A stretch of DNA of 64,000 bases from the NCBI GenBank assembly GCA_947561585.1, contig CANNZV010001853.1, positions 163,922 through 227,921 on the forward strand, in the 5' to 3' direction. Below the pieces are notes generated by a model, which was not told the DNA's origin, did no database searches, and saw nothing but the letters and a program-made list of their open reading frames with translations. The stretch comes from Caprella mutica (lineage: Eukaryota; Arthropoda; Malacostraca; Amphipoda; Caprellidae). Positions 1 through 50,194 of the stretch are shown here, in pieces (position 1 is the first letter of the stretch; each line of letters starts with the position of its first letter). The position numbers and the translations under genes are program-made.

Positions 1-1346
1 ATCTATCAACAATAAGGGATCTATCTGCAGCAAAGGATCTATCTACAGCAAAGGATCTATCTTCAGCAAAGGATCTATCTACAGCAAAGTGATCTATCTA
101 CAGAAAGGGATCTATCTACAGCAAAGAATCTATCTACACTGAAGGATCTTTCTACAGCGAAAGATCTTTCTACAGCAGAGGATTTTTCTACAGCAAAGGA
201 TCTATCTACAGCAAAGGATCTATTTACAGTATGGGATCTATCTACAACAACGGTTTTATCTACAATAAAAGATCTATCTACAGAAAAGGATCTATCTACA
301 GCGTAGAATCTATCTAAAGCAAAGGATCCATCTACAGCAAAGGATCTATCTACAGTAAAGGATCTATCTACTGCAAAGGAACTGTCTACAGCAAAGGATC
401 TATCTACAACAAAGAATCTATCTACACCAAAGGATCAATCTACAGCAAATGATCTATCTACAGTAAAGGGACTACATACAGCAAAGGATCCATCTACAGT
501 CAAGGATCTATCAACAGCAAAGGATCAATCTATAGCAAAAGATCTATTTACAACAAAATGTCTATCCACAGCAAAAAATCTATCTACAGCGAAGGATCTA
601 TCTACAGGAAAGGATCTATCTACAGCAAAGGATCTATTTACAGTAAAGGAGCTATCTACAGCAAAAGATCTATCAACACTGAGGGATCTCTCTACAGCAT
701 AGGACCTATCTACAGTAAAGGATCTATCTACCTCATATGATCAATCCACAGCAAGAGATCTATCTACAGCAAAGGATCTATTTACAGAAAAGGAGCTATC
801 TACAGCAAAAGATCTATCTACAATAAGGGATCTATCTTCAGCAAAGGATATATCTACAGCAAATGATCTATCTTCAGCAAATGTTCTTTCTACAGCATAA
901 GATCTATCGACAGCAAAGGATCTATCTACAATAAGTGATCTATCTACATCAAAGGATCTATCTACAGCAAAAGATCTATCTACAACAAATGATCAATCTA
1001 CAGCAAAGGATATATCTACAGTAAAGGATCTCTATACAGCCAAAGGATCCATTTACAGCAAAGGACCTATCTACAGTAAGGGATCTATTTACAGCGAAGG
1101 ATCAATCTACAGAAAATGATCTATCAACAGCAAAGGATCTATCTACAGCATAGAATCTATCTACAGCAATGGATCTATCTACAGTAAAAGATCTTTTTGC
1201 AGCAAAGGATAAATCTACAGCAAAGGATCTTTTTACAGCGAAGGATCGATCTACAGCAAAGGATCCATCTACAGCAAAGGATCTATTTACAGCAAAGGAT
1301 CTATCTACACCAAAGGATCTATCTAAAGTCAAGGATTTATCTACTG
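1..1346. repeat. 18-bp minisatellite array, left of the retroelement
   Basis: Head-to-tail copies of GGATCTATCTACAGCAAA with substitutions and occasional 1-bp indels fill this stretch from the first base, so the array starts outside the window. Variant landmarks seen here (the CAACAACGG block near 245, the ACCTCATATGATC variant near 730, the CTCTATACAGCC variant near 1030) recur many times to the right of the retroelement, so this is the same array interrupted by an insertion. Open frames here read as hexapeptide repeats and show nothing like a gene. An apparent open frame at 1197-1478 starts in satellite and runs into the retroelement tail, so it is a chance chimera. Confidence 0.97.
1334..1346. 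repeat. Target-site duplication, left copy
   Basis: GATTTATCTACTG directly precedes the first non-satellite base. The same 13 bases resume at 4806. Undisturbed satellite elsewhere (for example near 8076-8110 and 10267-10300) reads GTCAAGGATTTATCTACTG followed by CAAAGGATCTCTC, which is exactly what results when the insert and one copy of these 13 bases are removed. Confidence 0.85.
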
Positions 1347-1382
1347 ATTGAAGAAAATAGAGGACTCCTTGGTTGCTACATT
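1347..1382 (-). other. 36-bp asymmetric 3' tail of the Penelope-like element
   Basis: These bases lie between the target-site duplication and the point (1383) where the left arm begins to match the right arm in inverse orientation. The right arm ends at 4805 with the same terminal sequence and goes straight into satellite without this tail. A short extension present at only one end has been described for Penelope elements, so I read it as part of the element and not as foreign filler. Confidence 0.6.
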
Positions 1383-2407
1383 ATGTTTAGGGTGAAGAAC
1401 TCAACAAGAAGTAGTTTGAATTTTCCCAAGCTTTCAGAATCCTTCGTGGTTTCCGTCTTCAGTGGTAACATTTATTAAAATACAAGCGACTTATAATCTA
1501 CCTACTAGTAATCATGATACATATCCTAACTTCTATTTTTTTATACATTTCAATTTTAATTTTTAACTATCTTATTAACTATAGGAACTATTTACTAAGG
1601 GACTTCCTATGCTCTATTTAAAGTGTCATCCTACCCATGCGTATAATAAGATTCTAATTTCCTCCTATTAAAAGTATGTTGACATTGTTACAATATTCTA
1701 ACATTATCAAAATCTAAACAATGGCCTGTATCTCTATTATGTTAATATATCTATGACTATTCTACTCTCTTAAGTACATTAGATTTATGTTCTTTAATTC
1801 TATCACCTAACATTCTACCTGTTTCTCCTACGTATTTACTATCACAATCCTAACAATCTATCTAGTATACTACATTAATTTTACATTTTTTCTCTAATCT
1901 ATCTTTTACTCTTATAACCTAATTGCCTATAGTATTAGTGGATCTATTACTCAATACAATGTCAAATGGTTTCAATATTTTTTAAACTCGTTCACTTGTT
2001 CTTTTTATGTATGGGGCTACTATGTATCTCTTATTGCTGTTCTCTTCTTCTCTTCTTTCTGGTTGTTATTCGTTTTGTAGGGCAATTCTCTTCTTATTTA
2101 TAACTCTATTAATTATTTAGTGTTAGATCTCGTCTTATTTCATCTTAATCGTCTTCTAAATGTGATTGGCTGCAAATTTTGAAAGCCCTGGATACTAATG
2201 AGTTTATCACACTGATTTTCTAAGTTTTTGAATTGTAGCTACTATAATTTAAATATTTTCCGGTATTTGAGGGTTTTCGGTATATTGTGAAATCTATTTA
2301 TCCACATTCTTTTTTCATGAGTTTGATATCCAGAAAAGCTAATTTGTTGTCCTCTTCTATTTCCTACGTGAATTGAATATGTTGGTTGATACTATTAATG
2401 AATGTAA
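1383..2407 (-). repeat. Left inverted arm of the Penelope-like element
   Basis: This arm is the reverse complement of 3765-4805, with scattered substitutions. It is about 16 bp shorter overall, mainly because of a 17-bp deletion near 2109. It holds the C-terminal end of the RT, the linker, the endonuclease and the 3' untranslated end. Substitutions between the arms show that they have diverged since they were joined. Examples are TAG here against TTG in the right arm near 2364, CGA against TGA in the YRKPSN segment, and GAACAT against GGATAT in the endonuclease. Confidence 0.93.
1550..2110 (-). pseudogene. GIY-YIG endonuclease part of the Penelope-like ORF (frame-shifted from the RT)
   Basis: Nicking endonuclease domain of the retroelement, expected to cut target DNA and prime reverse transcription. 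On the minus strand the frame runs without TGA to a TGA at 1550-1552. The GIY part reads VVY at 1865-1873. It is followed by a Cys-x-x-Cys knuckle (DC-x-DC, where x is a TAG codon), then YVGETGRML (YVGE at 1822-1833) and RIKEH at 1787-1801, which keeps the Arg and Glu expected in the GIY-YIG core. The downstream part contains a HNRDTGHCLDFDN stretch and LNR...VP, typical of Penelope C-termini. Fourteen in-frame TAA/TAG codons occur, all suiting glutamine. A 17-bp deletion near 2109, relative to the right arm, throws this domain out of frame with the RT, so the fused protein cannot be made without frameshifting. Confidence 0.85.
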
Positions 2408-3770
2408 ATAATGACTCTTTTCTATTTCCTGGAATGATGACTAAACAATCATCAACGTATCTTTTCCACAGTAATATTTCGCATGGAGGATTAGATAGAA
2501 TTTGTTTTTCTATGTTTTACATCACCATCTCAGCGATGACGGCTGATATTGGTGATCCCATGGGAGTTCCCTTTATCTGTTTGTATATGTCATTATTGTA
2601 TTGGAAGAAATTGGAATCAATACAAATTTTGACTAAATTCATTATGTCTTCTTTCTCGAGATTAGTCCAAGTATGAATTTCGTCATCCAATTCTATTGCT
2701 TCTGCTACGCACTACAATGCAAAATCTTAAGGAATGCAGGTAAATAGACTTTTTACATCATAAGAGACTAAAATGTTATCTTCCGGGACAATCATATTTT
2801 CCAACACTTCTTTAGCTTGGTAGGAATTTTTTAATTTCTATGGTGCTTTATCCGTTATTGGAGTAAGTAATTTCGACATAAATTTTGCTAGTTCATATGT
2901 AGGACTGTCTATGAATGACACTATTGGTCTAATTGGATTATCTACTTTATGCGTTTTTATATTGGCTTAAAATCTAGGAGTAATAGTTTTATTACAATAT
3001 AATTTCTTGTAGGTTTCATCATCTATTTTTTTATTATCTTTTAATTTCTTTAGTAGATAGTTCAGTTTGTTCTTCAAAGTATTCGTAGGATTTGATGATA
3101 ATTTAGAATAAGTACTAGTTTAGTTCAGATGATGTAGTACTTTATCATTATATTCAATTTAATCTGTAATTACTAAAGCATTTCCTTTATCAACTTTAGT
3201 TATTTTTATAGTTTGATCATTTTTTATAGTTTTCAATGTATCTTTTTCTCTATTTGTCAAGTTCAATTATTTTGCATTGCACATAGATATCTGAATAGCA
3301 TTTACTACATTTTACTTAACTTGTGGTTTGTCTCGATAAGATATGTCACGGCAATTTTCGATAGCTCCATCAACAGAAGCAGTAAGGGTCAGAATATCCC
3401 ATTTTGAGTGTCCTGTGTTGAAGTTAGATCCTTTCGACAATACATTTATTTGTTCTTGAGTTACTAATTTACTTGACAGATTAATCACGGCAGATCTATT
3501 CTAACGAACATTGTTGTTAATCCTAGCAATATTTAGATTTTCTAAATATTCATACTTTTCTATCAGTCGTATCTTCTCTTAAGACATTTTCCTGGTGTGT
3601 TTATCATTCGCGGTTTCAATTAGTCTTTACATCAATTCATTACTCAATATTCCAGTCAGTTTACATTTCAGTTGGTGTATTTTATTCTTGTACTCATGAA
3701 TCCTTTTATGATTATCACTAATGAAGAACTTTAAGCACATCTTTGGGAGAGTAATTTAAAAGTATTACAT
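2111..3770 (-). pseudogene. Penelope-like reverse transcriptase (open if TAA/TAG = Gln)
   Basis: RNA-dependent DNA polymerase of the element. On the minus strand, about 550 codons stay in one frame. Motifs in order are NLSSKLVT (about 3459-3482), KGNA (3177-3188), RPIVS followed by SPTYELAKF (about 2880-2930), YDVKSLFT with the motif-A aspartate (2739-2762), GTPMGSP (PMGSP at 2550-2564), and WKRYVDD (YVDD at 2448-2459) with the two catalytic aspartates. Next comes the AFLDIKL...YRKPSNTGKY connection typical of Penelope RTs. In the standard code the frame has 18 stops, all TAA or TAG and none TGA; about a dozen CAA/CAG codons are also used. If TAA/TAG are read as Gln, an ORF runs from ATG at 3770 to TGA at 1995. 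That ATG lies just inside the inverted-arm junction, and a TGA sits directly upstream, so the true N-terminus is probably lost. Past about 2110 the frame is shifted by a 17-bp deletion and the last residues are not native. Confidence 0.9.
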
Positions 3771-4805
3771 TCATTAATAGTATCAACCAACATATTCAAT
3801 TCACGTTGGAAATAGAAGAGGACAACAAATTAGCTTTTCTGGATATTAAACTCATGAAAAAAGAATGTGGATAAATAGATTTCACAATATACTGAAAACC
3901 CTCAAATACCGGAAAATATTTAGATTATAGTAGCTACAATTCAAAAACTTAGAAAATCAGTGTGATAAACTCATTAGTATCCAGGGCTTTCAAATTTGCA
4001 GCCAATCACATTTAGAAGACGAATTAGATGAAATAAGACGAGATCTAACACAAAATAATTATCCGAAAAGAGAAATTAATAGAGTTATAAATAAGAAGAG
4101 AATTGCCCTACAAAACGAATAACAACCAGAAAGAAGAGAAGAAGAGAACAGCAATAAGAGATACATAGTAGCCCCATACATAAAAAGAACAAGTGAACGA
4201 GTTTAAAGAATATTGAAACCATTTAACATTGTATTGAGTAATAGATCCACTAATACTATAGGCAATTAGGTTATAAGAGTAAAAGATAGATTAGAGAAAG
4301 AATGTAAAATTAATGTAGTATACTAGATAGATTGTTAGGATTGTGATAGTAAATACGTAGGAGAAACAGGTAGAATGTTAGGTGATAGAATTAAAGGATA
4401 TAAATCTAATGTACTTAAGAGAGTAGAATAGTCATAGATATATTAACATAATAGAGATACAGGCCATTGTTTAGATTTTGATAATGTTAGGATATTGTAA
4501 CAATGTCAACATACTTTTAATAGGAGGAAATTAGAATCATATTATACGCATGGGTAGGATGACACTTTAAATAGAGCATAGGAAGTCCCTTAGTAAATAG
4601 TTCCTATAGTTAATAAGATAGTTAAAAATTAAAATTGAAATGTATAAAAAAATTGAAGTTAGGATATGTATCATGATTACGAGTAGGTAGATTATAAGTC
4701 GCTGGTATTTTATTAATGTTAACCCTGAAGACGGAAACCACGAAGGATTCTGAAAGCTTGGGAAAACTCAAAACTACTTCTTGTTGAGTACTTCACCCTA
4801 AACAT
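3765..4805 (+). repeat. Right inverted arm of the Penelope-like element
   Basis: This arm is the inverted counterpart of 1383-2407. It begins at the codons just after the YVDD region of the RT and runs to the element's end at 4805. The arm joins the core at about 3765, where the minus-strand RT frame also begins, giving a head-to-head junction of a longer and a 5'-truncated copy. It lacks the 36-bp tail found at the other end. Confidence 0.93.
3768..4638 (+). pseudogene. 5'-truncated Penelope-like copy: RT C-terminus plus GIY-YIG endonuclease
   Basis: The plus-strand frame begins with the RT tail (INSINQHIQFTLEIEEDNK, then LAFLDIKL). It has a TGA at 3893-3895, where the other copy has CGA (Arg). 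It then loses one A in an A-run near 3992-3996, which shifts the frame. From about 4012 the endonuclease frame is open, read with TAA/TAG as Gln, to a TGA at 4636-4638, the same terminator as in the left arm. The linker missing from the left arm is intact here. VVY is at 4315-4323, then the Cys-x-x-Cys knuckle, and YVGE at 4354-4365. The RIKEH segment has become RIKGY, so the presumed catalytic glutamate is gone. It cannot make an active enzyme. Confidence 0.85.
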
Positions 4806-4818
4806 GATTTATCTACTG
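4806..4818. repeat. Target-site duplication, right copy
   Basis: GATTTATCTACTG follows the last retroelement base and continues as normal satellite (CAAAGGATCTCTCTAC). It matches the 13 bases at 1334-1346. The flanking bases differ on both sides, so the length is exactly 13. Confidence 0.85.
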
Positions 4819-7800
4819 CAAAGGATCTCTCTACAGCAAAGGATCTATCTACAGCAAAGGATCTATTTACAGCGAAGGATCTATCTACAACAAAGGATCT
4901 ATCTACAGCAAAGGATCTATCTACAGCAAAGGATCTATCTACAGCAAAGGATCTATCTACAGTCAAGGATTTATCTACTGCAAAGGATCTCTCTACAGCA
5001 AAGGATCAATCTACATTTAAGGATCTATCTTAAGCAAAGTATTTATCTACAGCAAATTATCTGTCTACACCAAAGAATCTTTCTACAGCGCAAGATCTGT
5101 CAACAGCAAAGGATCAATCTATAGCAAAAGATCCATTCACAACAAAAGTTCTATCTACAGCAAAGGATCTATCTACAGAAAAGGATCTATCTTCAGCAAA
5201 GGATCTATCTACAGTAAAGTGATCTATCTACAGTAAGGGATCTATCTACAGCAAAGAATCTATCTACACTATAGGATCTTTCTACAGCGAAAGATCTTTC
5301 TACAGCAGATGATCTTTCTACAGCAAAGGATCTATCTACAGCAAAGGATCTATTTACAGTATGGGATCTATCTACAACAACGGTTTTATCTACAATAAAA
5401 GATCTATCTACAGAAAAGGATCTATCTAAAGCGAAGAATCTATCTAAAGCAAAGGATCCATCTACAGCAAAGGATCTATCTACAGTAAAGGATCTATCTA
5501 CTGCAAAGGAACTGTCTACAGCAAAGGATCTATCTACAACAAAGAATCTATCTACAGCAAAGAATCTATGTTCAGCAAATAATCTATCTACAGCAAATGA
5601 TCTATCTACAGCAAAGGATAAATCTACAGCAAAGGATCAATCTACAGCAAATAATCTATCTACAGTAAAGGGATTTTATACAGCAAAGGATCTATCTACA
5701 GCAAAGGATCTATCTACAACAAAGGATCTATCTACAGTAAAGGATCTATCTACAACAACCGATTTATCTACAGCAAAGGATCTATCTACAGCAAAGGATC
5801 CATCTACAGCAAAAGATCTATCTACAGTAAAGGATCTATCTACTGCAAAGGATCTGTCTTCAGCAAAGGATCTATCTACAACAAAGAAACTATTTACAAC
5901 AAAGAATCCATGTTCAGCAAATGATCTATCTACAGCAAATGATCTATCTACAGCAAAGGATCAATCTACAGCAAAGGATCAATCTACAGCAAATAATCTA
6001 TCTACATTAAGGGACTATATACAACAAAGGATCCATCTAAAGTTGAGGATCTATCAACAGCAAAGGATCAATTTATAACAAAAGATCTATTTATAACAAA
6101 AGTTCTATCTACAGCAAAGAATCTATCTACAGCAAAGGATCTATCTACAGGAAAGGATCTATCTACAGCAAAGGATTTACAGTAAAGGAGCTATCTACAG
6201 CAAGAGATCTATCAACAATGAAGGATCTATCTTCAGCAAAGGATCTATCTACATCAAAGGATCTATCCTCAGAAAAGTATCTTAATAAAGCATAGGATCT
6301 ATGTACAGTAATGGATCTATCTACTGCATAGGATACATCTACTGCAAAGAATCTATCTACAGCAAAGAATCTATCTTCAGCAAAGAATCTATCTACAGCA
6401 AAGGATCTATCTACAGCAAAGGATCTGTTCTACAGCAAAGGATCTATCTACAGCAAAGGATCTATCTACAGTCATGGATTTATCTACTGCAAAGGATCTC
6501 TCTACAGCATAGGATCAATCTAAAGTTAAGGATCTACCTTAAGCAAAGGATCTATCAACAGCAAAGGATCTATCTAAAGCCAATGATCTATCTACAACAA
6601 AGGATCTATTTGCAACAGCAGCACTTTATACAGCAAAGGATCTATCTACAGCAAAGGATCTATCTTCGGCAAAGTGATCTATCTTCAGTAAGGGATCTAT
6701 CTACAGCAAAGAATCTGTCTTCACCAAAGGATCTTTCTATAACGCAGGATCTGTCAACAGCAAAGGATCAATCTATAGCAAAAGATCTATTTACAACAAA
6801 AGTTCAATCTACAGCAAAAAATCTATCTACAGCAAAGGATCTATCTACAGCAAATGATCTAACTACAGGAAAGGATCTATCTAAAGCAAAGGATCTATTA
6901 ACAGTAAAGGAGCTATCTACAGCAAAAGATCTATCTACAGTGGGGGATCGATCTACAGCAAAGGATCTATCTACAGCAAAGTGTTCCATCTACAGCAGAG
7001 GATCTATCTACAGCAAAGGATCTATTTACAGCAGAAGATCTTTTTACAGCAGAGGATCTATTTACAGCAGAAGATCTTTCTAAAGCAGAGGATCTTTCTA
7101 CGGCAAATGATCTATCTACAGCAAAGGATCTATTTACAGAAAAGGATCTATCTACAGCAAATTATCTATCTACAACGAACGATTTATCTACAGCAAAGGA
7201 TCTATCTACATATAAGGATCCATCTACAGCAAAGGATCTATCTACAGTAAAAGTTCTATCTACAGCAAAGGACCTATCTACAGTAAAGGATCTATCTACC
7301 TCATATGATCAATCCACAGCAAGGGATCTATCTACAGCAAAGGATCTATTTACAGTAAAGGAGCTCTCTACAGCAAAAGATCTATCTACAATAAGGGATC
7401 TATCTTCAGCAAAGGATATATCTACATCAAATGATCTATCTTCAGCAAAGGTTCTCTCTAAAGCATAAGATCTATCGACAGTAAAGGATCTATCTACAAT
7501 AAGTGATCTATCAACATCAAAGGATCTATCTACAGCAAAAGATCTATCTACAGCAAATGATCAATCTACAGCAAAGGATATATCTACAGTAAAGGAACTC
7601 TATACAGCCAAAGGATCCATTTACAGCAAATGACCTATCTACAGTAAGGGATCTATTTACAGCGAAGGATCAATCTACAGCAAATGATCTATCTACAGCA
7701 GAGGATCTATCTACAGCATAGGATCTATCTACAGCAATGGATCTATCTACAGTAAAAGATCTTTTTGCAGCAAAGGATAAATCTACAGCAAAGGATCTTT

Positions 7801-9100
7801 TTACAGCGAAGGATCGATCTACAGCAAAGGATCCATCTACAGCAAAGGATCCATCTACAGCAAAGGATCTATCTACAGAAAAGGATCTATCTACAGCAAA
7901 GGATCTATCTACAGTCAAGGATTTCTCTGCTGCAAAGGATCTCTCTACAGCAAAGGATCTATCTACAGCAAAGGATCTATTTACAGCGAAGGATCTATCT
8001 ACAACAAAGGATCTATCTACAGCAAAGAATCTATCTACAGCAAAGGATCTATCTACAGCAAAGGATCTATCTACAGTCAAGGATTTATCTACTGCAAAGG
8101 ATCTCTCAACAGCAAAGGATCAATCTACATTTAAGGATCTATCTTAAGCAAAGGATTTATCTACAGCAAAGGATCTATCTACAGCAAAGTGATCTATCTT
8201 CAGTAAGGGATCTATCTACAGCAAATTATCTGTCTACACCAAAGGATCTTTCTACACCGCAGGATCTGTCAACAGCAAAGGATAAATCTATAGCAAAAGA
8301 TCTATTTACAACAAAAGTTCTATCTAAAGCAAAGGATCTATCTACAGCAAAGGATCTATTTACAGTAAAGAAGCTATCTACAGCAAAAGATCTATCAACA
8401 ATGAGGGATCTATCTGCAGCAAAGGATCTATCTACAGCAAAGGATCTATCTTCAGCAAAGGATCTATCTACAGCAAAGTGATCTATCTACAGAAAGGGAT
8501 CTATCTACAGCAAAGAATCTATCTACACTGAAGGATCTTTCTACAGCGAAAGATCTTTCAACAGCAGAGGATCTTTCTACAGCAAAGGATCTATCTACAG
8601 CAAAGGATCTATTTACAGTATGGGATCTATCTACAACAACGGATTATCTACAATAAAAGATCTATCTACAGAAAAGGATCTATCTACAGCGAAGAATCTA
8701 TCTAAAGCAAAGGATCCATCTACAGCATAGAGCAAAGGATCTATCTACAGTAAAGGATCAATCTACAGCAAATGATCTATCTACAGTAAAGGGACTACAT
8801 ACAGCAAAGGATCTATATACACCAAAGGATCAATCTACAGCAAATGATCTATCTACAGTAAAGGGACTACATACAGCAAAGGATCCATCTACAGTCAAGG
8901 ATCTATCAACAGCAAAGGATCAATCTATAGCAAAAGATCTATTTACAACAAAAGTTCTATCTACAGCAAAAAATCTATCTACAGCAAAGGATCTATCTAC
9001 AGGAAAGGATCTATCTACAGCAAAGGATCTATTTACAGTAAAGGAGCTATCTACAGCAAAAGATCTATCAACACTGAGGGATCTATCTACAGCAAAGGAC
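4819..9100. repeat. 18-bp minisatellite, divergent segment
   Basis: Continuous 18-bp monomers with no gene. This part shares landmark variants with the rest of the array but is not part of a near-identical long duplication that I could see. It includes the longest single open frame in the satellite (6301-7083). That frame passes through the SKGSIY, QQRIYL and DLSTAK hexapeptide phases where 17- and 19-bp monomers shift the register, which argues against a selected protein. Variants present include TGATCTATCTTCAGTAAGG near 6675 and 8190, GCAACAGCAGCACTTTATAC near 6611, and the CTCTATACAGCC variant near 7600. Confidence 0.95.
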
Positions 9101-10972
9101 CTATCTACAGTAAAGGATCTATCTACCTCATATGATCAATCCACAGCAAGAGATCTATCTACAGCAAAGGATCTATTTACAGTAAAGGAGCTATCTACTG
9201 CAAAAGATCTATCTACAATAAGGGATCTATCTTCAGCAAAGGATATATCTACAGCAAATGATCTATCTTCAGCAAATGTTCTTTCTACAGCATAAAATCA
9301 ATCGACAGCAAAGGATCTATCTACAATAAGTGATCTATCAACATCAAAGGATCTATCTACAGCAAAAGATCTATCTACAGCAAATGATCAATCTACAGCA
9401 AAGGATATATCTACAGTAAAGGAACTCTATACTGCCAAAGGATCCATTTACAGCATAGGACCTATCTACAGTAAGGGATCTATTTACAGCGAAGGATCAA
9501 TCTACAGCAAATGATCTATCTACAGCAAAGGATCTATCTACAGCATAGAATCTATCTACAGCAATGGATTTATCTACAGTAAAAGATCTTTTTGCAGCAA
9601 AGGATAAATCTACAGCAAAGGATCTTTTTACAGCGAAGGATCGATCTACAGCAAAGGATCCATCTACAGCAAAGGATCCATCTACAGCAAAGGATCTATC
9701 CACAGAAAAGGATCTATCTACAGCAAAGGATCTATCTACAGTCAAGAATTTCTCTACTGCAAAGGATCTCTCTACAGCAAGGGATCTATCTACAGCAAAG
9801 GATCTATTTACAGTAAAGGAGCTCTCTACAGCAAAAGATCTATCTACAATAAGGGATCTATCTTCAGCAAAGGATATATCTACAGCAAATGATCTATCTT
9901 CAGCAAAGGTTCTTTCTACAGCATAAGATCTATCGACAGTAAAGGATCTATCTACAATAAGTGATCTATCAACATCAAAGGATCTATCTACAGCAAAAGA
10001 TCTATCTACAGCAAGTGATCAATCTACAGCAAAGGATATATCTACAGTAAAGGAACTCTATACAGCCAAAGGATCCATTTACAGCAATGGATCAATCTAC
10101 AGTAAAAGATCTTTTTGCAGCAAAGGATAAATCTACAGCAAAGGATCTTTTTACAGCGAAGGATCGATCTATAGCAAAGGATCCATCTACAGCAAAGGAT
10201 CCATCTACAGCAAAGGATCTATCTACAGCAAAGGATCTATCTACAGCAAAGGATCTATCTACAGTCAAGGATTTATCTACTGCAAAGGATCTCTCTACAG
10301 CAAAGGATCTATCTACAACAAAGGATCTATCTACAGCAAAGAATCTATCTACAGCAAAGGATCTATCTACAGCAAAGGATCTATCTACAGTCAAAGATTT
10401 ATCTACTGCAAAGGATCTCTCTACAGCAAAGGATCTCTCTACAGCAAAGGATCAATCTACATTTAAGGATCTATTTTAAGCAAAGGATTTATCTACAGCA
10501 AAGGATCTATCTACAGCAAAGTGATCTATCTTCAGTAAGGGATCTATCTACAGCAAATTATCTGTCTACACCAAAGGATCTTTCTACAGCGCAGGATCTG
10601 TCAACAGCAAAGGATAAATCTATAGCAAAAGATCTATTTACAACAAAAGTTCTATCTACAGCAAAGGATCTATTTACAGTAAAGAAGCTATCTACAGCAA
10701 AAGATCTATCAACAATAAGGGATCTATCTGCAGCAAAGGATCTATCTACAGCAAAGTGATCTATCTACAGAAAGGGATCTATCTACAGCAAAGAATCTAT
10801 CTAAACTGAAGGATCTTTCTGCAGCGAAAGATCTTTCTACAGCAGAGGATCTTTCTACAGCAAAGGATCTATCTACAGCAAAGGATCTATTTTCAGTATG
10901 GCATCTATCTACAACAACGGTTTTATCTACAATAAAAGATCTATCTACAAGAAAGGATCTATCTACAGCGAA

Positions 10973-12628
10973 GAATCTATCTAAAGCAAAGGATCCATCT
11001 ACAGCAAAGGATCTATCTACAGTAAAGGATCTATCTACTGCAAAGGAACTGTCTACAGCAAAGGATCTATCTACAACAAAGAATCTATCTACAGCAAAGG
11101 ATCAATCTACAGCAAATGATCTATCTACAGTAAAGGGACTACATACAGCAAAGGATCCATCTACAGTCAAGGATCTATCAACAGCAAAGGATCAATCTAT
11201 AGCAAAAGATCTATTTACAACAAAAGTTCTATCTACAGCAAAAAATCTATCTACAGCAAAGGATCTATCTACAGGAAAGGATCTATCTACAGCAAAGGAT
11301 CTATTTACAGTAAAGGAGCTATCTACAGCAAAAGATCTATCAACACTGAGGGATCTATCTGCAGCAAAGGATCTATCTACAGCAAAGGATCTATTTTCAG
11401 CAAAGGATCTTTATACAGCATAGGATATATGTACAATAATGGATCTATCTACTGCATAGGATACATATACTGCAAAGAATCTATCTACAGCAAAGAATCT
11501 ATCTTCAGCAAAGAATCTATCAACAGAAAAGGATCTATCTACAACAAAGGATCTATCTACAGCAATGGATCAATCTACAGCAAAGGATTTTTCTACAGTA
11601 AAAGAACTATCTACAGCAAAGGATCCATCTACAGAAAGGATTTATCTACAGCAAAGGATCCATCTACAGCAAAGGATCTATCTCAGCAAAGGATCTTTCT
11701 ACAGAATAGGATCTATCTACAGCAAAGGATCTATCCACAATATGTGATCTATTCACAGCAAAAGATCTATCTACAGCAAAGGATCTATCTACAGCAAATG
11801 ATCAATCTATAGCAAAGGATATATCTACAGTAAAGGAACTCTATACAGCCATAGGATCCATTTACAGCAAAGGATCTATCTACAACAAAGGATCTATCTA
11901 CAGCAAAGGATCTATTTATAGCAGAGAATCTTTCTACAGCAAAAGATCTACTACAGCAAAGGATCTATCTTCAGCAAAGGATCTATTTACAGCAAAAGAT
12001 CAATCCAAAGCAAAGGACCTATCTACAGCAAAGGATCTATCTATAGTCAAGGATTTATCTACTGCAAAGGATCTCTCTACAACAAAGGATCTATCTACAG
12101 TCAAGGATTTATCTACTGCAAAGGATCTCTCTACAGCAAAGGATCAATCTACATTTAAGGATCTATCTTAAGCAAAGGTTTTATCTACAGCAAAGGATCT
12201 ATCTACAGCAAAGTGATCTATCTTCAGTAAAGGATCTATCTACAACTAATTATCTGTCCACACCAAAGGATCTTTCTACAGCGCAGGATCTGTCAACAGC
12301 AAAGGATCAATCTATAGCAAAAGATCTATTTACAACAAAAGTTCTATTTACAGCAAAGGATCTATCTACAGCAAAGGATCTATCTTCAGCAAAAGATCTA
12401 TCTACAGCAAAGTGATCTATCTACAGTAAGGGATCTATCTACAGCAAAGAATCTATCTACACTATAGGATCTTTCAAAAGCGAAAGATCTTTCTACAGCA
12501 GAGGATCTTCCTACAGCAAAGGATCTATCTACAGCAAAGGATCTATTTACAGTATGGGATCTATCTACAACAACGGTTTTATCTACAATAAAAGATCTAT
12601 CTACAGAAAAGGATCTATCTACAGCGAG
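10973..12628. repeat. 1656-bp higher-order repeat, copy 1
   Basis: This block matches 12629-14284 at an offset of 1656 bp, exactly 92 monomers. Diagnostic variants inside are GTACAATAATGG with ACTGCATAGGATACATATAC, the 17-bp monomer ATCTATCTCAGCAAAGG, CACAATATGTGATC and AGATCTACTACAGC. Identity falls to the left of 10973, where related but diverged monomers continue. Confidence 0.88.
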
Positions 12629-14284
12629 GAATCTATCTAAAGCAAAGGATCCATCTACAGCAAAGGATCTATCTACAGTAAAGGATCTATCTACTGCAAA
12701 GGAACTGTCTACAGCAAAGGATCTATCTACAACAAAGAATCTATCTACAGCAAAGGATCAATCTACAGCAAATGATCTATCTACAGTAAAGGGACTACAT
12801 ACAGCAAAGGATCCATCTACAGTCAAGGATCTATCAACAGCAAAGGATCAATCTAGGGCAAAAGATCTATTTACAACAAAAGTTCTATCTACAGCAAAAA
12901 ATCTATCTACAGCAAAGGATCTATCTACAGGAAAGGATCTATCTACAGCAAAGGATCTATTTACAGTAAAGGAGCTATCTACAGCAAAAGATCTATCAAC
13001 ACTGAGGGATCTATCTGCAGCAAAGGATCTATCTACAGCAAAGGATCTATTTTCAGCAAAGGATCTTTATACAGCATAGGATATATGTACAATAATGGAT
13101 CTATCTACTGCATAGGATACATATACTGCAAAGAATCTATCTACAGCAAAGAATCTATCTTCAGCAAAGAATCTATCAACAGAAAAGGATCTATCTACAA
13201 CAAAGGATCTATCTACAGCAATGGATCAATCTACAGCAAAGGATTTTTCTACAGTAAAAGAACTATCTACAGCAAAGGATCCATCTACAGAAAGGATTTA
13301 TCTACAGCAAAGGATCCATCTACAGCAAAGGATCTATCTCAGCAAAGGATCTTTCTACAGAATAGGATCTATCTACAGCAAAGGATCTATCCACAATATG
13401 TGATCTATTCACAGCAAAAGATCTATCTACAGCAAAGGATCTATCTACAGCAAATGATCAATCTATAGCAAAGGATATATCTACAGTAAAGGAACTCTAT
13501 ACAGCCATAGGATCCATTTACAGCAAAGGATCTATCTACAACAAAGGATCTATCTACAGCAAAGGATCTATTTATAGCAGAGAATCTTTCTACAGCAAAA
13601 GATCTACTACAGCAAAGGATCTATCTTCAGCAAAGGATCTATTTACAGCAAAAGATCAATCCAAAGCAAAGGACCTATCTACAGCAAAGGATCTATCTAT
13701 AGTCAAGGATTTATCTACTGCAAAGGATCTCTCTACAACAAAGGATCTATCTACAGTCAAGGATTTATCTACTGCAAAGGATCTCTCTACAGCAAAGGAT
13801 CAATCTACATTTAAGGATCTATCTTAAGCAAAGGTTTTATCTACAGCAAAGGATCTATCTACAGCAAAGTGATCTATCTTCAGTAAAGGATCTATCTACA
13901 ACTAATTATCTGTCCACACCAAAGGATCTTTCTACAGCGCAGGATCTGTCAACAGCAAAGGATCAATCTATAGCAAAAGATCTATTTACAACAAAAGTTC
14001 TATTTACAGCAAAGGATCTATCTACAGCAAAGGATCTATCTTCAGCAAAAGATCTATCTACAGCAAAGTGATCTATCTACAGTAAGGGATCTATCTACAG
14101 CAAAGAATCTATCTACACTATAGGATCTTTCAAAAGCGAAAGATCTTTCTACAGCAGAGGATCTTCCTACAGCAAAGGATCTATCTACAGCAAAGGATCT
14201 ATTTACAGTATGGGATCTATCTACAACAACGGTTTTATCTACAATAAAAGATCTATCTACAGAAAAGGATCTATCTACAGCGAG
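12629..14284. repeat. 1656-bp higher-order repeat, copy 2
   Basis: Tandem partner of 10973-12628; the match continues to about 14411. Differences are few, for example CTAGGGC near 12852 where copy 1 has CTATAGC near 11196. Confidence 0.88.
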
Positions 14285-17200
14285 GAATCTATCTAAAGCA
14301 AAGGATCCATCTACAGCAAAGGATCTATCTACAGTAAAGGATCTATCTACTGCAAAGGAACTGTCTACAGCAAAGGATCTATCTACAACAAAGAATCTAT
14401 CTACAGCAAAGAATCTATGTTCAGCAAATAATCTATCTACAGCAAATGATCTATCTTCAGCAAAGGATCAATCTACAGCAAAGGATCAATCTACAGCAAA
14501 TAATCTATCTACAGTAAAGGGACTATATACAGCAAAGGATCTATCTACAGCAAAGGATCTATCTACAACAAAGGATCTATCAACAGTAAAGGATCTATTT
14601 ACAACAAAGGATCTATCTACAACAACCGATTTATCTACAGCAAAGGATCTATCTACAGCAAAGGATCCATCTACAGCAACGGATCTATCTACAGTAAAGG
14701 ATATATCTACTGCAAAGGATCTGTCTTCAGCAAAGGATCTATCTACAACAAAGAAACTATTCACAACAAAGAATCCATGTTCAGCAAATAATCTATCTAC
14801 AGCAAATGATCTATCTACAGCAAAGGATCAATCTACAGCAAAGGATCAATCTACAGCAAATAATCTATCAACAGTAAAGGGACTATATACAACAAAGGAT
14901 CCATCTAAAGTTGAGGATCTACCAACAGCAAAGGATCAATCTATTACGAAAGATCTATTAACAACAAAAGTTCTATCTTTAGCAAAGAATCTATCTACAG
15001 CAGAGAATCTATCTACAGGAAAGGATCTATCTACAGCAAAGGATCTATTTACAGTAAAGGAGCTATCTACAGCAAGAGATCTATCAATAATGAAGGATCT
15101 ATCTTCAGCAAAGGATCTATCTACATCAAAGGATCTATCCTCAGAAAAGTATCTTATTACAGCATAGGATCTATGTACAGTAATGGATCTATCTACTGCA
15201 TAGGATACATCTACTGCAAAGAATCTATCTACAGCAAAGAATCTATCTTCAGCAAAGAATCTATCTATAGCAAAGGATCTATTTACAGCAAAGGATCTGT
15301 TCTACCGCAAAGGATCTATCTACAGCAAAGGATATATCTACAGTCAAGGATTTATCTACTGCAAAGGATCTCTCAACAGCATAGGATCAATCTAAAGTTA
15401 AGGATCTACCTTAAGCAAAGGATCTATCAACAATAAAGGATCTATCTTAAGTCAATGATCTATCTACAACAAAGGATCTATTTGCAACAGCAGAACTTTA
15501 TACAGCAAAGGATCTATCAACAGCAAAGGATCTATCTACAGCAAAGTGATCTATCTTCAGTAAGGGATCTATCTACAGCAAAGAATCTGTCTTCACCAAA
15601 GGATCTTTCTACAACGCAGGATCTGTCAACAGCAAACGATCAATCTATAGCAAAAGATCTATTTACAACAAAAGTTCAATCTACAGCAAAAAATCTATCT
15701 ACAGCAAAGGATCTATCAACAGCAAAGGATCTATCTACAGGAAAGGATCTATCTAAAGCAAAGGATCTATCTACAGCAAAGTGATCTATCTACAGTGTGG
15801 GATCGATCTACAGCGAATGATCCATCTACAGCAAAGTTTTCTATCTACAGCAGAGGATCTATCTACAGCAAAGGATCTATTTACAGCAGAAGATCTTTCT
15901 ACAGCAGAGGATCTTTCTACGGCAAATGATCTATCTACAGCAAAGGATCTATTTACAGAATGGGATCTATCTACAGCAACTGTTTTATCTACAATAAAAG
16001 ATCTATCTACAGAAAAGGATCTATTTACAGAAAAGGATCTATCTACAGTAAAGGATTTATCTACAGCAAATTATCTATCTACAACGAACGATTTATCTAC
16101 AGCAAAGGATCTATCTACATATAAGGATCCATCTACACTCTACAGCAAAGGATCTATCTACAGTAAAGGATCTATCTACAGCAAAGGACCTATCTACAGT
16201 AAAGGATCTATCTACCTCATATGATCAATCCACAGCAAGGGATCTATCTACAGCAAAGGATCTATTTACAGTAAAGGAGCTATCTACAGCAAAAGATCTA
16301 TCTACAATAAGGGATCTATCTTCAGCAAAAGATATATCTACAGCAAATGATCTGTCTACACCAAAGGATCTTTCTACAGCGCAGGATCTGTCAACAGCAA
16401 AGGATAAATCTATAGCAAAAGATCTATTTACAACAAAAGTTCTATTTACAGCAATGGATCTATCTACAGCAAAGGATCTATTTACAGTAAAGGATCTATC
16501 TTCACTAAAGGATCTATCTACAGCAAAGTGATCTATCTACAGTAAGGGATCTATCTACAGCAAAGAATCTATCTACACTATAGGATCTTTCTACAGCGAA
16601 AGATCTTTCTACAGCAGAGGATCTTTCTAAAGCAAAGGATCTATCTAGAGCAAAGGATCTATTTACAGTATGGGATCTATCTACAACAACGGTTTTATCT
16701 ACAATAAAAGATCTATCTACACAAAAGGATCTATCCACAGCGAAGAATCTATTTAAAGCAAAGGATCCATCTACAGCAAAGGATCTATCTACAGTGAAGG
16801 ATCTATCTACTGCAAAGGAACTGTCTACAGCAAAGGATCTATCTACAACTAAGAATCTATTTACAGCAAAGGATCAATCTACAGCAAATGATCTATCTAA
16901 AGCAAAGGGACTACATACAGCAAAGGATCTATCTACAGTTAAGGATCTATCAACAGCAAAGGATCAATCTATAGCAAAAGATCTATTTACAACAAAAGTT
17001 CTATCTACAGCAAAAAATCTATCTACAGCAAAGGATCTATCTACAGGAAAGGATCTATCTACAGCAAAGGATCTATTTACAGTAAAGGAGCTATCTACAG
17101 CAAAAAATCTATCTACAGCAAAGGATTTATCTACAGGAAAGGATCTATCTACAGCAAAGGATCTATTTACAGTAAAGGAGCTATCTACAGCAAAAGATCT

Positions 17201-20153
17201 ATCAACACTGAGGGATCTATCTGCAGCAAAGGATCTATCTGCAGCAAAGGATCTATTTTCAGCAAAGGATATATCTACAGCAAATGATCTATCTTCAGCA
17301 AAGGTTCTTTCTACAGCATAAGATCTATCGACAGTAAAGGATCTATCTATAATAAGGGATCTATCTTCAGCAAAGGATCAATCTACAGCAAAGGATCAAT
17401 CTACAGCAAATAATCTATCAACAGTAAAGGGACTATATACAACAAAGGATCCATCTAAAGTTGAGGATCTATCAACAGCAAAGGATCAATCTATTAAAAA
17501 AGATCTATTAACAACAAAAGTTCTATCTATAGCAAAGAATCTATCTACAGCAGAGAATCTATCTACAGCAAAAGATCTATCTACAGCAAATGATCAATTT
17601 ACAGCAAAGGATATATCTACAGTAAAGGAACTCTATACAGCCAAAGGATCCATTTACAGCAATGGATCTATCTACAGTAAAAGATCTTTTTGCAGCAAAG
17701 GATAAATCTACAGCGAAGGATCTTTTTAAAGCTAAGGATCGATCTACAGCAAAGGATCCATCTACAGCAAAGGATCCATCTACAGCAAAGGATCTATCTA
17801 CAGCAAAGGATCTATCTACAGCAAAGGATCTATCTACAGTCAAGGATTTATCTACTGCAAAGGATCTCTCTACAGCAAAGGATCAATCTACATTTAAGGA
17901 TCTATTTTAAGCAATGGATTTATCTACAGTAAAGGATCTATCTACAGCAAAGGGATCTATCTTCAGTAAGGGATCTATCTACAGCAAATTATCTGTCTAC
18001 ACCAAAGGATCTTTCTACAGCGCAGGATCTGTCAACAGCAAAGGATAAATCTATAGCAAAAGATCTATCAACAATAAGGGATCTATCTGCAGCAAAGGAT
18101 CTATCTACAGCAAAGGATCTATCTTCAGCAAAGGATCAATCTACAGCAAAGTGATCTATCTACAGAAAGGGATCTATCTACAGCAAAGAATCTATCTACA
18201 CTGAAGGATCTTTCTACAGCGAAAGATCTTTCTACAGCAGAGGATCTTTCTACAGCAAAGGATCTATCTACAGCAAAGGATCTATCTACAGTAAAGGATC
18301 TATCTACCTCATATGATCAATCCACAGCAAGAGATCTATCTACAGCAAAGGATCTATTTACAGTAAAGGAGCTATCTACTGCAAAAGATCTATCTACAAT
18401 AAGGGATCTATCTTCAGCAAAGGATATATCTACAGCAAATGATCTATCTTCAGCAAATGTTCTTTCTACAGCATAAAATCAATCGACAGCAAAGGATCTA
18501 TCTACAATAAGTGATCTATCAACATCAAAGGATCTATCTACAGCAAAAGATCTATCTACAGCAAATGATCAATCTACAGCAAAGGATATATCTACAGTAA
18601 AGGAACTCTATACTGCCAAAGGATCCATTTACAGCATAGGACCTATCTACAGTAAGGGATCTATTTACAGCGAAGGATCAATCTACAGCAAATGATCTAT
18701 CTACAGCAAAGGATCTATCTACAGCATAGAATCTATCTACAGCAATGGATTTATCTACAGTAAAAGATCTTTTTGCAGCAAAGGATAAATCTACAGCAAA
18801 GGATCTTTTTACAGCGAAGGATCGATCTACAGCAAAGGATCCATCTACAGCAAAGGATCCATCTACAGCAAAGGATCTATCCACAGAAAAGGATCTATCT
18901 ACAGCAAAGGATCTATCTACAGTCAAGAATTTCTCTACTGCAAAGGATCTCTCTACAGCAAGGGATCTATCTACAGCAAAGGATCTATTTACAGTAAAGG
19001 AGCTCTCTACAGCAAAAGATCTATCTACAATAAGGGATCTATCTTCAGCAAAGGATATATCTACAGCAAATGATCTATCTTCAGCAAAGGTTCTTTCTAC
19101 AGCATAAGATCTATCGACAGTAAAGGATCTATCTACAATAAGTGATCTATCAACATCAAAGGATCTATCTACAGCAAAAGATCTATCTACAGCAAGTGAT
19201 CAATCTACAGCAAAGGATATATCTACAGTAAAGGAACTCTATACAGCCAAAGGATCCATTTACAGCAATGGATCAATCTACAGTAAAAGATCTTTTTGCA
19301 GCAAAGGATAAATCTACAGCAAAGGATCTTTTTACAGCGAAGGATCGATCTATAGCAAAGGATCCATCTACAGCAAAGGATCCATCTACAGCAAAGGATC
19401 TATCTACAGCAAAGGATCTATCTACAGCAAAGGATCTATCTACAGTCAAGGATTTATCTACTGCAAAGGATCTCTCTACAGCAAAGGATCTATCTACAAC
19501 AAAGGATCTATCTACAGCAAAGAATCTATCTACAGCAAAGGATCTATCTACAGCAAAGGATCTATCTACAGTCAAAGATTTATCTACTGCAAAGGATCTC
19601 TCTACAGCAAAGGATCTCTCTACAGCAAAGGATCAATCTACATTTAAGGATCTATTTTAAGCAAAGGATTTATCTACAGCAAAGGATCTATCTACAGCAA
19701 AGTGATCTATCTTCAGTAAGGGATCTATCTACAGCAAATTATCTGTCTACACCAAAGGATCTTTCTACAGCGCAGGATCTGTCAACAGCAAAGGATAAAT
19801 CTATAGCAAAAGATCTATTTACAACAAAAGTTCTATCTACAGCAAAGGATCTATTTACAGTAAAGAAGCTATCTACAGCAAAAGATCTATCAACAATAAG
19901 GGATCTATCTGCAGCAAAGGATCTATCTACAGCAAAGTGATCTATCTACAGAAAGGGATCTATCTACAGCAAAGAATCTATCTAAACTGAAGGATCTTTC
20001 TGCAGCGAAAGATCTTTCTACAGCAGAGGATCTTTCTACAGCAAAGGATCTATCTACAGCAAAGGATCTATTTTCAGTATGGCATCTATCTACAACAACG
20101 GTTTTATCTACAATAAAAGATCTATCTACAAGAAAGGATCTATCTACAGCGAA

Positions 20154-21809
20154 GAATCTATCTAAAGCAAAGGATCCATCTACAGCAAAGGATCTATCTA
20201 CAGTAAAGGATCTATCTACTGCAAAGGAACTGTCTACAGCAAAGGATCTATCTACAACAAAGAATCTATCTACAGCAAAGGATCAATCTACAGCAAATGA
20301 TCTATCTACAGTAAAGGGACTACATACAGCAAAGGATCCATCTACAGTCAAGGATCTATCAACAGCAAAGGATCAATCTATAGCAAAAGATCTATTTACA
20401 ACAAAAGTTCTATCTACAGCAAAAAATCTATCTACAGCAAAGGATCTATCTACAGGAAAGGATCTATCTACAGCAAAGGATCTATTTACAGTAAAGGAGC
20501 TATCTACAGCAAAAGATCTATCAACACTGAGGGATCTATCTGCAGCAAAGGATCTATCTACAGCAAAGGATCTATTTTCAGCAAAGGATCTTTATACAGC
20601 ATAGGATATATGTACAATAATGGATCTATCTACTGCATAGGATACATATACTGCAAAGAATCTATCTACAGCAAAGAATCTATCTTCAGCAAAGAATCTA
20701 TCAACAGAAAAGGATCTATCTACAACAAAGGATCTATCTACAGCAATGGATCAATCTACAGCAAAGGATTTTTCTACAGTAAAAGAACTATCTACAGCAA
20801 AGGATCCATCTACAGAAAGGATTTATCTACAGCAAAGGATCCATCTACAGCAAAGGATCTATCTCAGCAAAGGATCTTTCTACAGAATAGGATCTATCTA
20901 CAGCAAAGGATCTATCCACAATATGTGATCTATTCACAGCAAAAGATCTATCTACAGCAAAGGATCTATCTACAGCAAATGATCAATCTATAGCAAAGGA
21001 TATATCTACAGTAAAGGAACTCTATACAGCCATAGGATCCATTTACAGCAAAGGATCTATCTACAACAAAGGATCTATCTACAGCAAAGGATCTATTTAT
21101 AGCAGAGAATCTTTCTACAGCAAAAGATCTACTACAGCAAAGGATCTATCTTCAGCAAAGGATCTATTTACAGCAAAAGATCAATCCAAAGCAAAGGACC
21201 TATCTACAGCAAAGGATCTATCTATAGTCAAGGATTTATCTACTGCAAAGGATCTCTCTACAACAAAGGATCTATCTACAGTCAAGGATTTATCTACTGC
21301 AAAGGATCTCTCTACAGCAAAGGATCAATCTACATTTAAGGATCTATCTTAAGCAAAGGTTTTATCTACAGCAAAGGATCTATCTACAGCAAAGTGATCT
21401 ATCTTCAGTAAAGGATCTATCTACAACTAATTATCTGTCCACACCAAAGGATCTTTCTACAGCGCAGGATCTGTCAACAGCAAAGGATCAATCTATAGCA
21501 AAAGATCTATTTACAACAAAAGTTCTATTTACAGCAAAGGATCTATCTACAGCAAAGGATCTATCTTCAGCAAAAGATCTATCTACAGCAAAGTGATCTA
21601 TCTACAGTAAGGGATCTATCTACAGCAAAGAATCTATCTACACTATAGGATCTTTCAAAAGCGAAAGATCTTTCTACAGCAGAGGATCTTCCTACAGCAA
21701 AGGATCTATCTACAGCAAAGGATCTATTTACAGTATGGGATCTATCTACAACAACGGTTTTATCTACAATAAAAGATCTATCTACAGAAAAGGATCTATC
21801 TACAGCGAG
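20154..21809. repeat. 1656-bp higher-order repeat, copy 3
   Basis: Equivalent of copy 1, displaced by 9181 bp as part of the larger duplication. It carries the same landmark variants in the same order. Confidence 0.87.
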
Positions 21810-23465
21810 GAATCTATCTAAAGCAAAGGATCCATCTACAGCAAAGGATCTATCTACAGTAAAGGATCTATCTACTGCAAAGGAACTGTCTACAGCAAAG
21901 GATCTATCTACAACAAAGAATCTATCTACAGCAAAGGATCAATCTACAGCAAATGATCTATCTACAGTAAAGGGACTACATACAGCAAAGGATCCATCTA
22001 CAGTCAAGGATCTATCAACAGCAAAGGATCAATCTAGGGCAAAAGATCTATTTACAACAAAAGTTCTATCTACAGCAAAAAATCTATCTACAGCAAAGGA
22101 TCTATCTACAGGAAAGGATCTATCTACAGCAAAGGATCTATTTACAGTAAAGGAGCTATCTACAGCAAAAGATCTATCAACACTGAGGGATCTATCTGCA
22201 GCAAAGGATCTATCTACAGCAAAGGATCTATTTTCAGCAAAGGATCTTTATACAGCATAGGATATATGTACAATAATGGATCTATCTACTGCATAGGATA
22301 CATATACTGCAAAGAATCTATCTACAGCAAAGAATCTATCTTCAGCAAAGAATCTATCAACAGAAAAGGATCTATCTACAACAAAGGATCTATCTACAGC
22401 AATGGATCAATCTACAGCAAAGGATTTTTCTACAGTAAAAGAACTATCTACAGCAAAGGATCCATCTACAGAAAGGATTTATCTACAGCAAAGGATCCAT
22501 CTACAGCAAAGGATCTATCTCAGCAAAGGATCTTTCTACAGAATAGGATCTATCTACAGCAAAGGATCTATCCACAATATGTGATCTATTCACAGCAAAA
22601 GATCTATCTACAGCAAAGGATCTATCTACAGCAAATGATCAATCTATAGCAAAGGATATATCTACAGTAAAGGAACTCTATACAGCCATAGGATCCATTT
22701 ACAGCAAAGGATCTATCTACAACAAAGGATCTATCTACAGCAAAGGATCTATTTATAGCAGAGAATCTTTCTACAGCAAAAGATCTACTACAGCAAAGGA
22801 TCTATCTTCAGCAAAGGATCTATTTACAGCAAAAGATCAATCCAAAGCAAAGGACCTATCTACAGCAAAGGATCTATCTATAGTCAAGGATTTATCTACT
22901 GCAAAGGATCTCTCTACAACAAAGGATCTATCTACAGTCAAGGATTTATCTACTGCAAAGGATCTCTCTACAGCAAAGGATCAATCTACATTTAAGGATC
23001 TATCTTAAGCAAAGGTTTTATCTACAGCAAAGGATCTATCTACAGCAAAGTGATCTATCTTCAGTAAAGGATCTATCTACAACTAATTATCTGTCCACAC
23101 CAAAGGATCTTTCTACAGCGCAGGATCTGTCAACAGCAAAGGATCAATCTATAGCAAAAGATCTATTTACAACAAAAGTTCTATTTACAGCAAAGGATCT
23201 ATCTACAGCAAAGGATCTATCTTCAGCAAAAGATCTATCTACAGCAAAGTGATCTATCTACAGTAAGGGATCTATCTACAGCAAAGAATCTATCTACACT
23301 ATAGGATCTTTCAAAAGCGAAAGATCTTTCTACAGCAGAGGATCTTCCTACAGCAAAGGATCTATCTACAGCAAAGGATCTATTTACAGTATGGGATCTA
23401 TCTACAACAACGGTTTTATCTACAATAAAAGATCTATCTACAGAAAAGGATCTATCTACAGCGAG
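21810..23465. repeat. 1656-bp higher-order repeat, copy 4
   Basis: Equivalent of copy 2, displaced by 9181 bp. It keeps the CTAGGGC variant of copy 2 (near 22033), which confirms that the 1656-bp pair existed before the 9181-bp duplication. Confidence 0.87.
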
Positions 23466-33100: not shown

Positions 33101-33227
33101 AAAAAAGGATCTATCAACAGCGAAGAATCTATCTAAAGCAAAGGATCCATCTACAGCAAAGGATCTATCTATAGTGAAGGATCTATCTACTGCAAAGGAA
33201 CTGTCTACAGCAAAGGATCTATCTACA
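30121..33227. repeat. 3107-bp higher-order repeat (3740-bp period), copy 1
   Basis: This segment matches 33861-36967 at a constant offset of 3740 bp. Matched landmarks include CAGTGTGGGATCG near 30514 and 34254, the CTACACTCTACAGC short monomer near 30853 and 34593, and ACCTCATATGATC near 30935 and 34675. A few substitutions distinguish the copies, for example ATGTTTTATC here against CTGTTTTATC in the other copy. Confidence 0.88.
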
Positions 33228-36800: not shown

Positions 36801-36967
36801 CTACAACAACGGTTTTATCTACAATAAAAGATCTATATACAAAAAAGGATCTATCAACAGCGAAGAATCTATCTAAAGCAAAGGATCCATCTACAGCAAA
36901 GGATCTATCTATAGTGAAGGATCTATCTACTGCAAAGGAACTGTCTACAGCAAAGGATCTATCTACA
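33861..36967. repeat. 3107-bp higher-order repeat (3740-bp period), copy 2
   Basis: Second copy of 30121-33227. The match stops at 36968, where this copy continues into a 1656-type block and the first copy continues into a different satellite subtype. The abrupt switch marks a recombination or duplication breakpoint. Confidence 0.88.
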
Positions 36968-41932: not shown

Positions 41933-41985
41933 TACAGCAAAAAAATCTATCCACAATATGTGATCTATTCACAGCAAAAGATCTA

Positions 41986-50100: not shown

Positions 50101-50194
50101 TCTAAAGCAATGGATCTATCTACAGTAAAAGATCTTTTTGCAGCAAAGGATAAATCTACAGCAAAGGATCTTTTTACAGCGAAGGATCGATCTA

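Follow-up and report, generated by a model that had tools for sequence, protein, structure and literature searches.

A Penelope-like retrotransposon family with TAA and TAG as glutamine codons in an amphipod genome assembly

Introduction

Why should a retroelement in the genome assembly of the amphipod Caprella mutica hold a long reverse transcriptase (RT) frame that is studded with TAA and TAG codons (TAR) and free of TGA? The first-pass annotation of this locus proposed that TAR is read as glutamine, with TGA as the only stop. NCBI code 6, found in ciliates, dasycladaceans and Hexamita, has the same codon meanings and the same sole terminator, TGA; unlike in those organisms, the usage described here is confined to one retroelement family, and the genome's own genes that we examined are standard. 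A difference in genetic code is generally regarded as an obstacle for mobile elements. A literature search over titles and abstract openings returned no recognised report of a code-crossing retrotransposon of such a kind. Retroelements including Penelope have been studied in Litopenaeus vannamei for horizontal transfer among aquatic species and parasites, and the excerpted text of that study describes no transfer across a genetic-code barrier and makes no mention of ciliates (PMC5055719).

A retrotransposon written in one code and inserted repeatedly and recently into a genome using another would carry its TAR codons as a tag of origin, so that sequence alone could be used to test from where, in which direction and by what route it was transferred. 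Standard pipelines would call its copies old pseudogenes, though in several of them the two arms are only about 1% apart. Here, we describe the element and its family, score the meaning of its TAR codons, read the code of the surrounding genome, and weigh the explanations for their coexistence.

Results

Architecture of the locus

The window, meaning the whole stretch of 64,000 nucleotides analysed (bases 163922-227921 of contig C1853, which is 227921 bases long), comes from an assembly of 903 Mb in 7200 contigs. It consists of an 18-bp satellite with a single interruption, a Penelope-like element at 1345-4805, with the following features in window positions:

1..1344, no strand: 18-bp satellite array, unit ATCTATCTACAGCAAAGG, left flank of the element
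1345..4805, 5'-truncated main copy on the minus strand and inverted partial copy on the plus strand: Penelope-like insertion (satellite ends at 1344 and resumes at 4806)
1550..1552, minus: TGA terminator of the left arm, ending the endonuclease frame
1553..2143, minus: GIY-YIG-type endonuclease (EN) frame of the left arm, in the window's main copy
2110..2120 (approximate, near 2114), minus: 17-base deletion, private among 16 copies, that puts EN out of the RT frame
2154..3770, minus: RT frame; 17 of its 539 codons are TAA/TAG and none is TGA (code 6)
2967..2969, minus: private nonsense TAA at conserved Tyr codon 268, hence no Gln codon (from the copy and family alignments)
3758..3987, plus: RT tail of the right arm, in the inverted partial copy, with one base missing near 3988
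3991..4635, plus: EN frame of the right arm; TAR makes up 14 of its 215 codons
4636..4638, plus: TGA terminator of the right-arm copy, ending its EN frame
4806..64000, no strand: 18-bp satellite array, right flank, running to the contig end (base 227921)

The remaining two minus-strand frames over 3770-1550 hold 19 and 25 TGA. The RT protein matches RVT_1 (PF00078) in Pfam with an E value of 3.7e-11 and has 537 homologues, the best of them 49% identical, which carry PF00078, PF28514 and PF26215; among solved structures, none matched the element's protein. The right-arm EN is 36% identical over 204 aa to P0116, a protein annotated with PF01541 (GIY-YIG), and a Pfam scan of the isolated EN piece returned no family at E 0.001.

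Much of the first-pass description of these frames stands. It had counted 18 TAR and no TGA in about 550 RT codons, of which the lack of TGA is right and the count is corrected to 17 in 539. The TAR-laden EN frame closing at TGA is confirmed by the 14 TAR of the right arm and by the left-arm stop at 1552-1550, and the right arm does finish at the matching TGA at 4636-4638. Frameshifts, by contrast, had gone unnoticed, namely the 17-base deletion in the minus copy and the base lost in the right arm, and one decay of CGA to TGA did take place, in the right arm, which has TGA at 3893-3895 where the left arm reads CGA.

The inverted arms are 95.8% identical in a self-BLAST alignment of 1049 bases with 24 mismatches and 4 gap openings, and a second copy of the whole element, 99.9% identical, lies at C1853:151521-154982 within a duplicated stretch. 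From about 142 kb to its end, C1853 is some 86 kb of 18-bp satellite and inserts. The inserts lie in a duplicated block and comprise two copies of the Penelope-like element and two LTR-type elements. Elsewhere on the contig, at 42087-44457, lies a different tandem repeat, which translates into iterations of the peptide ECPHYNRVSTLQ.

In overall design, the element resembles Penelope/Poseidon-type Penelope-like elements (PLEs) with a GIY-YIG endonuclease, in which RT and then endonuclease occupy one frame, and it shares with PLEs its pseudo-LTRs, 5' truncation, inverted partial copies and a direct 5' partial copy. A hammerhead ribozyme is not known to be obligatory in every PLE. Such a ribozyme within the pseudo-LTR has been reported for several PLEs (PMC11167929), and Rfam gave no match to one up to E 1 in the window copy (positions 1300-4900).

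A family of TAR-bearing copies

Searching the assembly with the RT protein gave 83 matches, with 80 of 1404 candidates scored, and the counts that follow are lower bounds. The matches divide into 41 rows of 68-97% identity, representing at least about 39 loci including the window's own two and holding 468 TAR against 12 TGA in the RT stretches that matched, and 42 further rows of 43-59% identity, which are standard-code Penelopes (22 of them stop-free, among the matches listed). The standard-code Penelopes of the assembly have open frames of 810 aa, and their RT proteins are 52% identical to those of the TAR family. Contig C127, considered as a third TAR lineage, proved to carry a standard-code Penelope with its stops outside the frame.

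For comparison we took 16 loci, 15 with TAR and one with the standard code, which together with the window gives 16 TAR copies. These form lineage A (the window, L027, L034 and L042), lineage B (11 copies) and a further single copy, L031. TAR occurs at 61 alignment columns, 44 of them common to two or more copies and 17 private to one. Disabling changes are distributed differently: the shared columns contain 19 frameshifting indels and 5 internal TGA, none of which recurs in a second copy, and an alternative counting that finds 6 internal TGA, partly elsewhere, again places each in one copy.

The frame also has consistent ends. Among the 13 copies with letters at the terminator column, 12 have TGA (three copies stop short of it); the thirteenth, L030, is a damaged copy with TGC, which counts against the reading of TGA as the stop. 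In three further copies (L049-L051), upstream sequence extends the frame by 67 codons to an ATG that all three have, with an upstream TGA at a distance of 93-94 codons. We infer that the conserved ATG is the start codon, in which case the frame would run for about 812 codons (67 plus 745 to the terminator), compared with 810 in the standard-code Penelope relatives of the same assembly.

TAR columns prefer glutamine

If TAR codons specify an amino acid, the family alignment should reveal which. We masked TAR as X and aligned the protein to 120 homologues, thinned to 52 for RT and 45 for EN, building the profile without the query; 30 TAR columns were scored after one of 31 was dropped for thin coverage. 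Over these columns glutamine scored 10.7 nats, against 4.3 for histidine and 4.1 for glutamate, so the alignment with Penelope-like proteins that the first-pass annotation had called for comes out in favour of its proposal. Control columns behaved as expected: 19 of 20 CAA/CAG columns gave a glutamine score of 12.1, and sense codons returned their own residue except GCG and GGG, which occur once each, and CGT, which tied. In 20000 random sets of other columns, none matched the glutamine score and one matched its margin. Extending the test to 43 columns, the union of those with a TAR majority in lineages A and B, raised glutamine to 18.9, with glutamate at 10.7.

Column by column, glutamine ranks top at 8 of 31 TAR columns, compared with 7 of 20 CAA/CAG columns, and its score falls below zero at codon 268, at RT columns 5, 217 and 469, and at EN column 202. 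The column of codon 268 reads TAT in 14 of the 16 copies and TAC in one, with tyrosine in 48 of 50 family sequences.

The codons are also used freely. Setting the element apart from known PLEs, TAA and TAG make up 61-72% of glutamine codons, with a TAR share of 0.61 in the window, 0.62 in lineage A, 0.61 in L031, 0.70 in lineage B and 0.72 in L028. In the same sets of copies, T accounts for comparable fractions, 0.67-0.82 of first positions in leucine YTR codons and 0.65-0.71 of third positions in NNY codons. The standard-code relative L041 has no TAR among its 30 glutamine codons. The element uses TAR like any regular synonymous codon of a full code; it is not a tolerated rarity.

The TAR-bearing frame evolved under selection

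Lineages A and B are separated by a dS of about 0.9 and a dN of about 0.1. Compared by their majority codons at 747 columns, they have a dN/dS ratio of 0.086 (0.074 without the glutamine columns, 0.104 for the endonuclease only), and the differences fall 67/35/221 on codon positions 1/2/3. The low ratio indicates that the protein was kept under selection while carrying more than 20 in-frame TAR codons. TAR is present in both lineages at 24 columns, and TAR and CAR are swapped at 8; the remaining changes at glutamine columns are to L, E, H, N, R, S, W, A, D and Y. Within lineage B the differences are far flatter by codon position (1680/1426/1959), as would be expected for copies drifting after insertion.

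These comparisons bear on the simplest alternative, that a standard-code element suffered ordinary C-to-T decay at CAA and CAG. The copies are indeed old enough to have acquired private nonsense changes. However, such decay should not spare other codons, and relative to L041, counting both lineages, glutamine columns became TAR 14 times and CAR 9 times, whereas histidine was kept 14 times, changed to TAR 8 times and never to tyrosine, proline was kept 38 times, and no CGA became TGA. Decay confined to CAA and CAG, which the first-pass annotation had named as the alternative, thus fails for want of parallel decay at His, Pro and CGA codons. It is further opposed by the 24 TAR columns common to lineages that diverged under purifying selection, by the free synonymous use of TAR, and by the privacy of every frameshift and internal TGA, and we give it practically no credence.

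Because the profile columns favour glutamine, TAR and CAR exchange under purifying selection, the TGA terminator is shared and TAR is freely used, the code of the element is one in which TAA and TAG are glutamine and TGA is the sole stop.

The surrounding genome reads the standard code

The proposal that holds for the element does not extend to the genome around it. Among the best 150 of 11994 RVT_1 candidates in the assembly, frames run stop-free for up to 1841 aa and only 4 rows have one stop. Contig C1853 itself carries a LINE-type frame of 1149 aa in the standard code, and the frames of its LTR-type element, which we take to be BEL, are likewise standard, with only weak protease and RT matches in Pfam.

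Host genes give the same answer. None of the HSP70 candidates scored (53 of 352) is TAR-laden. Three HSP70 matches on C1428 list stops; the two that we read are intact standard frames ending in TAA, their other stops lying outside. Both of these genes (L044 and L045) are diverged and intronless, one being 42-52% identical to its relatives among the matches listed. No TAR-laden tubulin gene was found either (96 candidates scored, giving 80 matches to exons and bacterial-type genes); some tubulin matches list one to five stops and appear to span introns. With retroelements, HSP70, tubulin and the closest Penelope relatives all reading standard, and with HSP70 genes ending in TAA, we reject glutamine as the host-wide meaning of TAR; this is the outcome of the host-gene check suggested by the first-pass annotation.

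When the assembly was searched with a pattern for glutamine-type anticodon and T arms, 30 of the hits were normal and one had CTA, and a second tRNA-Gln pattern allowing 3 mismatches gave 15 hits, all TTG. The CTA arm lies in GC-rich, apparently bacterial DNA (L046, C8:158700-159000), where ARAGORN calls no tRNA; it resembles bacterial pylT. The two patterns found no tRNA-Gln(YUA) among tRNAs of the searched shape, and the suppressor tRNA-Gln with CUA or UUA anticodon that the first-pass annotation had proposed to look for did not emerge from them. Nor does the element appear to bring its own, as ARAGORN found no suppressor tRNA in the window or the 16 loci.

Could the animal nevertheless translate the element, through a suppressor system, for instance in the germ line, that reads UAA and UAG as glutamine, the family then being endogenous and autonomous? 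Two or more lineages have recently been inserted in this genome, the nearest known relatives are standard-code Penelopes of the same assembly, and the source lineages were selected while TAR-laden, all of which fit. The searches for tRNA-Gln(YUA) speak against it, as do the lack of in-frame TAR in the host genes and other retroelements examined and the two HSP70 genes that stop at TAA. The free use of TAR, on a par with any other synonymous codon, is moreover more than weak suppression would permit. We consider this explanation quite unlikely. A retrotransposon family that had moved wholly into a second, hidden nuclear code, used in some cell type of the animal, is in our judgement improbable; should the animal read TAR after all, its use of the code would be of a kind new to animals.

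TAR copies and standard-code elements occur on the same contigs

The mixture of codes might instead arise from contamination or misassembly, with the TAR elements residing on contigs of a TAR=Gln organism sampled together with the animal. Bacterial DNA does occur in the assembly, including an alphaproteobacterial dnaK (L043, C2840:14600-16700) whose product is up to 92% identical to DnaK of marine Rhodobacteraceae. Yet TAR copies and standard-code retroelement frames lie together on C1853, C280, C709 and C34, and the window copy sits in the same satellite as standard-frame LTR-type elements and was segmentally duplicated with them. On C914, a 4.4-kb flank has a 168-bp repeat in common with C1853, and 3.6 kb on C1352 has nothing in common with it.

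Organellar and nuclear markers also fail to reveal a second organism of this kind. In the search for COX1, all 25 candidates were scored and 24 matched. One gene type carries TGA codons, 7 of them, and occurs twice on C5068, and no second type with TGA codons was seen; the 22 other matches, without TGA, look bacterial. Together with the shared contigs and the lack of TAR-laden HSP70 or tubulin genes among the candidates scored, this makes contamination very unlikely.

Tempo and sources of the insertions

Of 17 stretches, 8 allowed the two arms of one insertion to be compared. Mismatches were 3/332 in L032, 5/571 in L034, 2/358 in L035, 2/147 in L042, 1/81 in L039, 2/53 in L038, 24/1049 in the window and 13/104 in L030; with L030 set apart, the arms of the five copies with at least 140 matched bases differ by 0.6-2.3%. 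Flanks and inner junctions differ among copies, except that L032 and L035 share both and are counted as one insertion. Judged from these junctions and arms, at least two diverged lineages, as well as L031, were inserted independently in this assembly, and several of the insertions are recent.

What kind of copy gave rise to these insertions? Among variants of lineage B, those found in two or more copies have a nonsynonymous to synonymous count of 20:21, against 271:82 for private ones (p 0.0003). With the count restricted to the younger B copies, of which there are eight from seven insertions, it comes to 9:6 against 79:20, a difference that is not significant (p 0.10). The source lineages thus seem to have been selected between insertions, a pattern that favours sources that were functional, as opposed to dead copies mobilised in trans.

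This result bears on the possibility that horizontal transfer brought in a few TAR copies, which the animal's standard-code Penelope proteins afterwards amplified in trans. The same genome has Penelopes with 810-aa open frames that might supply the machinery, and in Adineta vaga the excerpted report found pseudo-LTR sequences to be enough for integration in trans (PMC3846280). Dead sources, however, should transmit their lesions, yet the 19 frameshifts and 5 internal TGA are all private. The shift of shared B variants towards synonymous change, though not significant in the younger copies, also argues against amplification in trans, as does the identity of only 52% between the TAR and standard RT proteins. 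We regard it as unlikely.

Discussion

We favour the reading that this retrotransposon was maintained in functional form in an organism with TAR=Gln and has been recently and repeatedly inserted into a standard-code animal genome, and we hold it to be probably correct. The RT-endonuclease protein would be made, and selected, in another organism whose nuclear code reads TAR as glutamine, a ciliate or diplomonad associated with the animal being the likeliest kind of donor. Either RNA or RNP of the element or DNA of the donor would repeatedly reach the germ line of the animal, where the copies would be dead on arrival for translation and decay neutrally afterwards. The animal's own Penelope machinery, acting in trans on pseudo-LTR ends, may have assisted.

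Several observations weigh against a foreign source. None of the collections tried, bacterial and viral included, yielded a donor genome or TAR-coded relatives, and a search with a 64-residue stretch between two TARs gave no match. The assembly showed neither TAR-laden HSP70 or tubulin nor a second TGA-bearing COX1, about 39 insertions are a lot, and the test of shared against private variants loses significance in the younger B copies.

The phylogeny would also fit an origin inside the host lineage. The RT tree joins the TAR clade, as sister group, to this assembly's standard-code Penelope together with P0002 (SH-aLRT 92). The tree is biased, since TAR-coded relatives would be absent from a database of standard-code proteins, and under a foreign source the sister position may reflect an exchange that took place earlier between the animal and its associate, or the lack of such relatives in the database.

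The contig that carries the TGA-bearing COX1, C5068, is mitochondrial. It is 31,582 bases long with its two COX1 copies (L132 and L133) 15,426 bases apart, and is probably a doubled circle. In its gene order trnL2 lies between cox1 and cox2, a mark of Pancrustacea. An annelid host, entertained because of the pylT-like match, was discarded on this crustacean-type order, and the host is probably a marine crustacean. The contig has nad5 on the plus strand and nad4, separate from it, on the minus.
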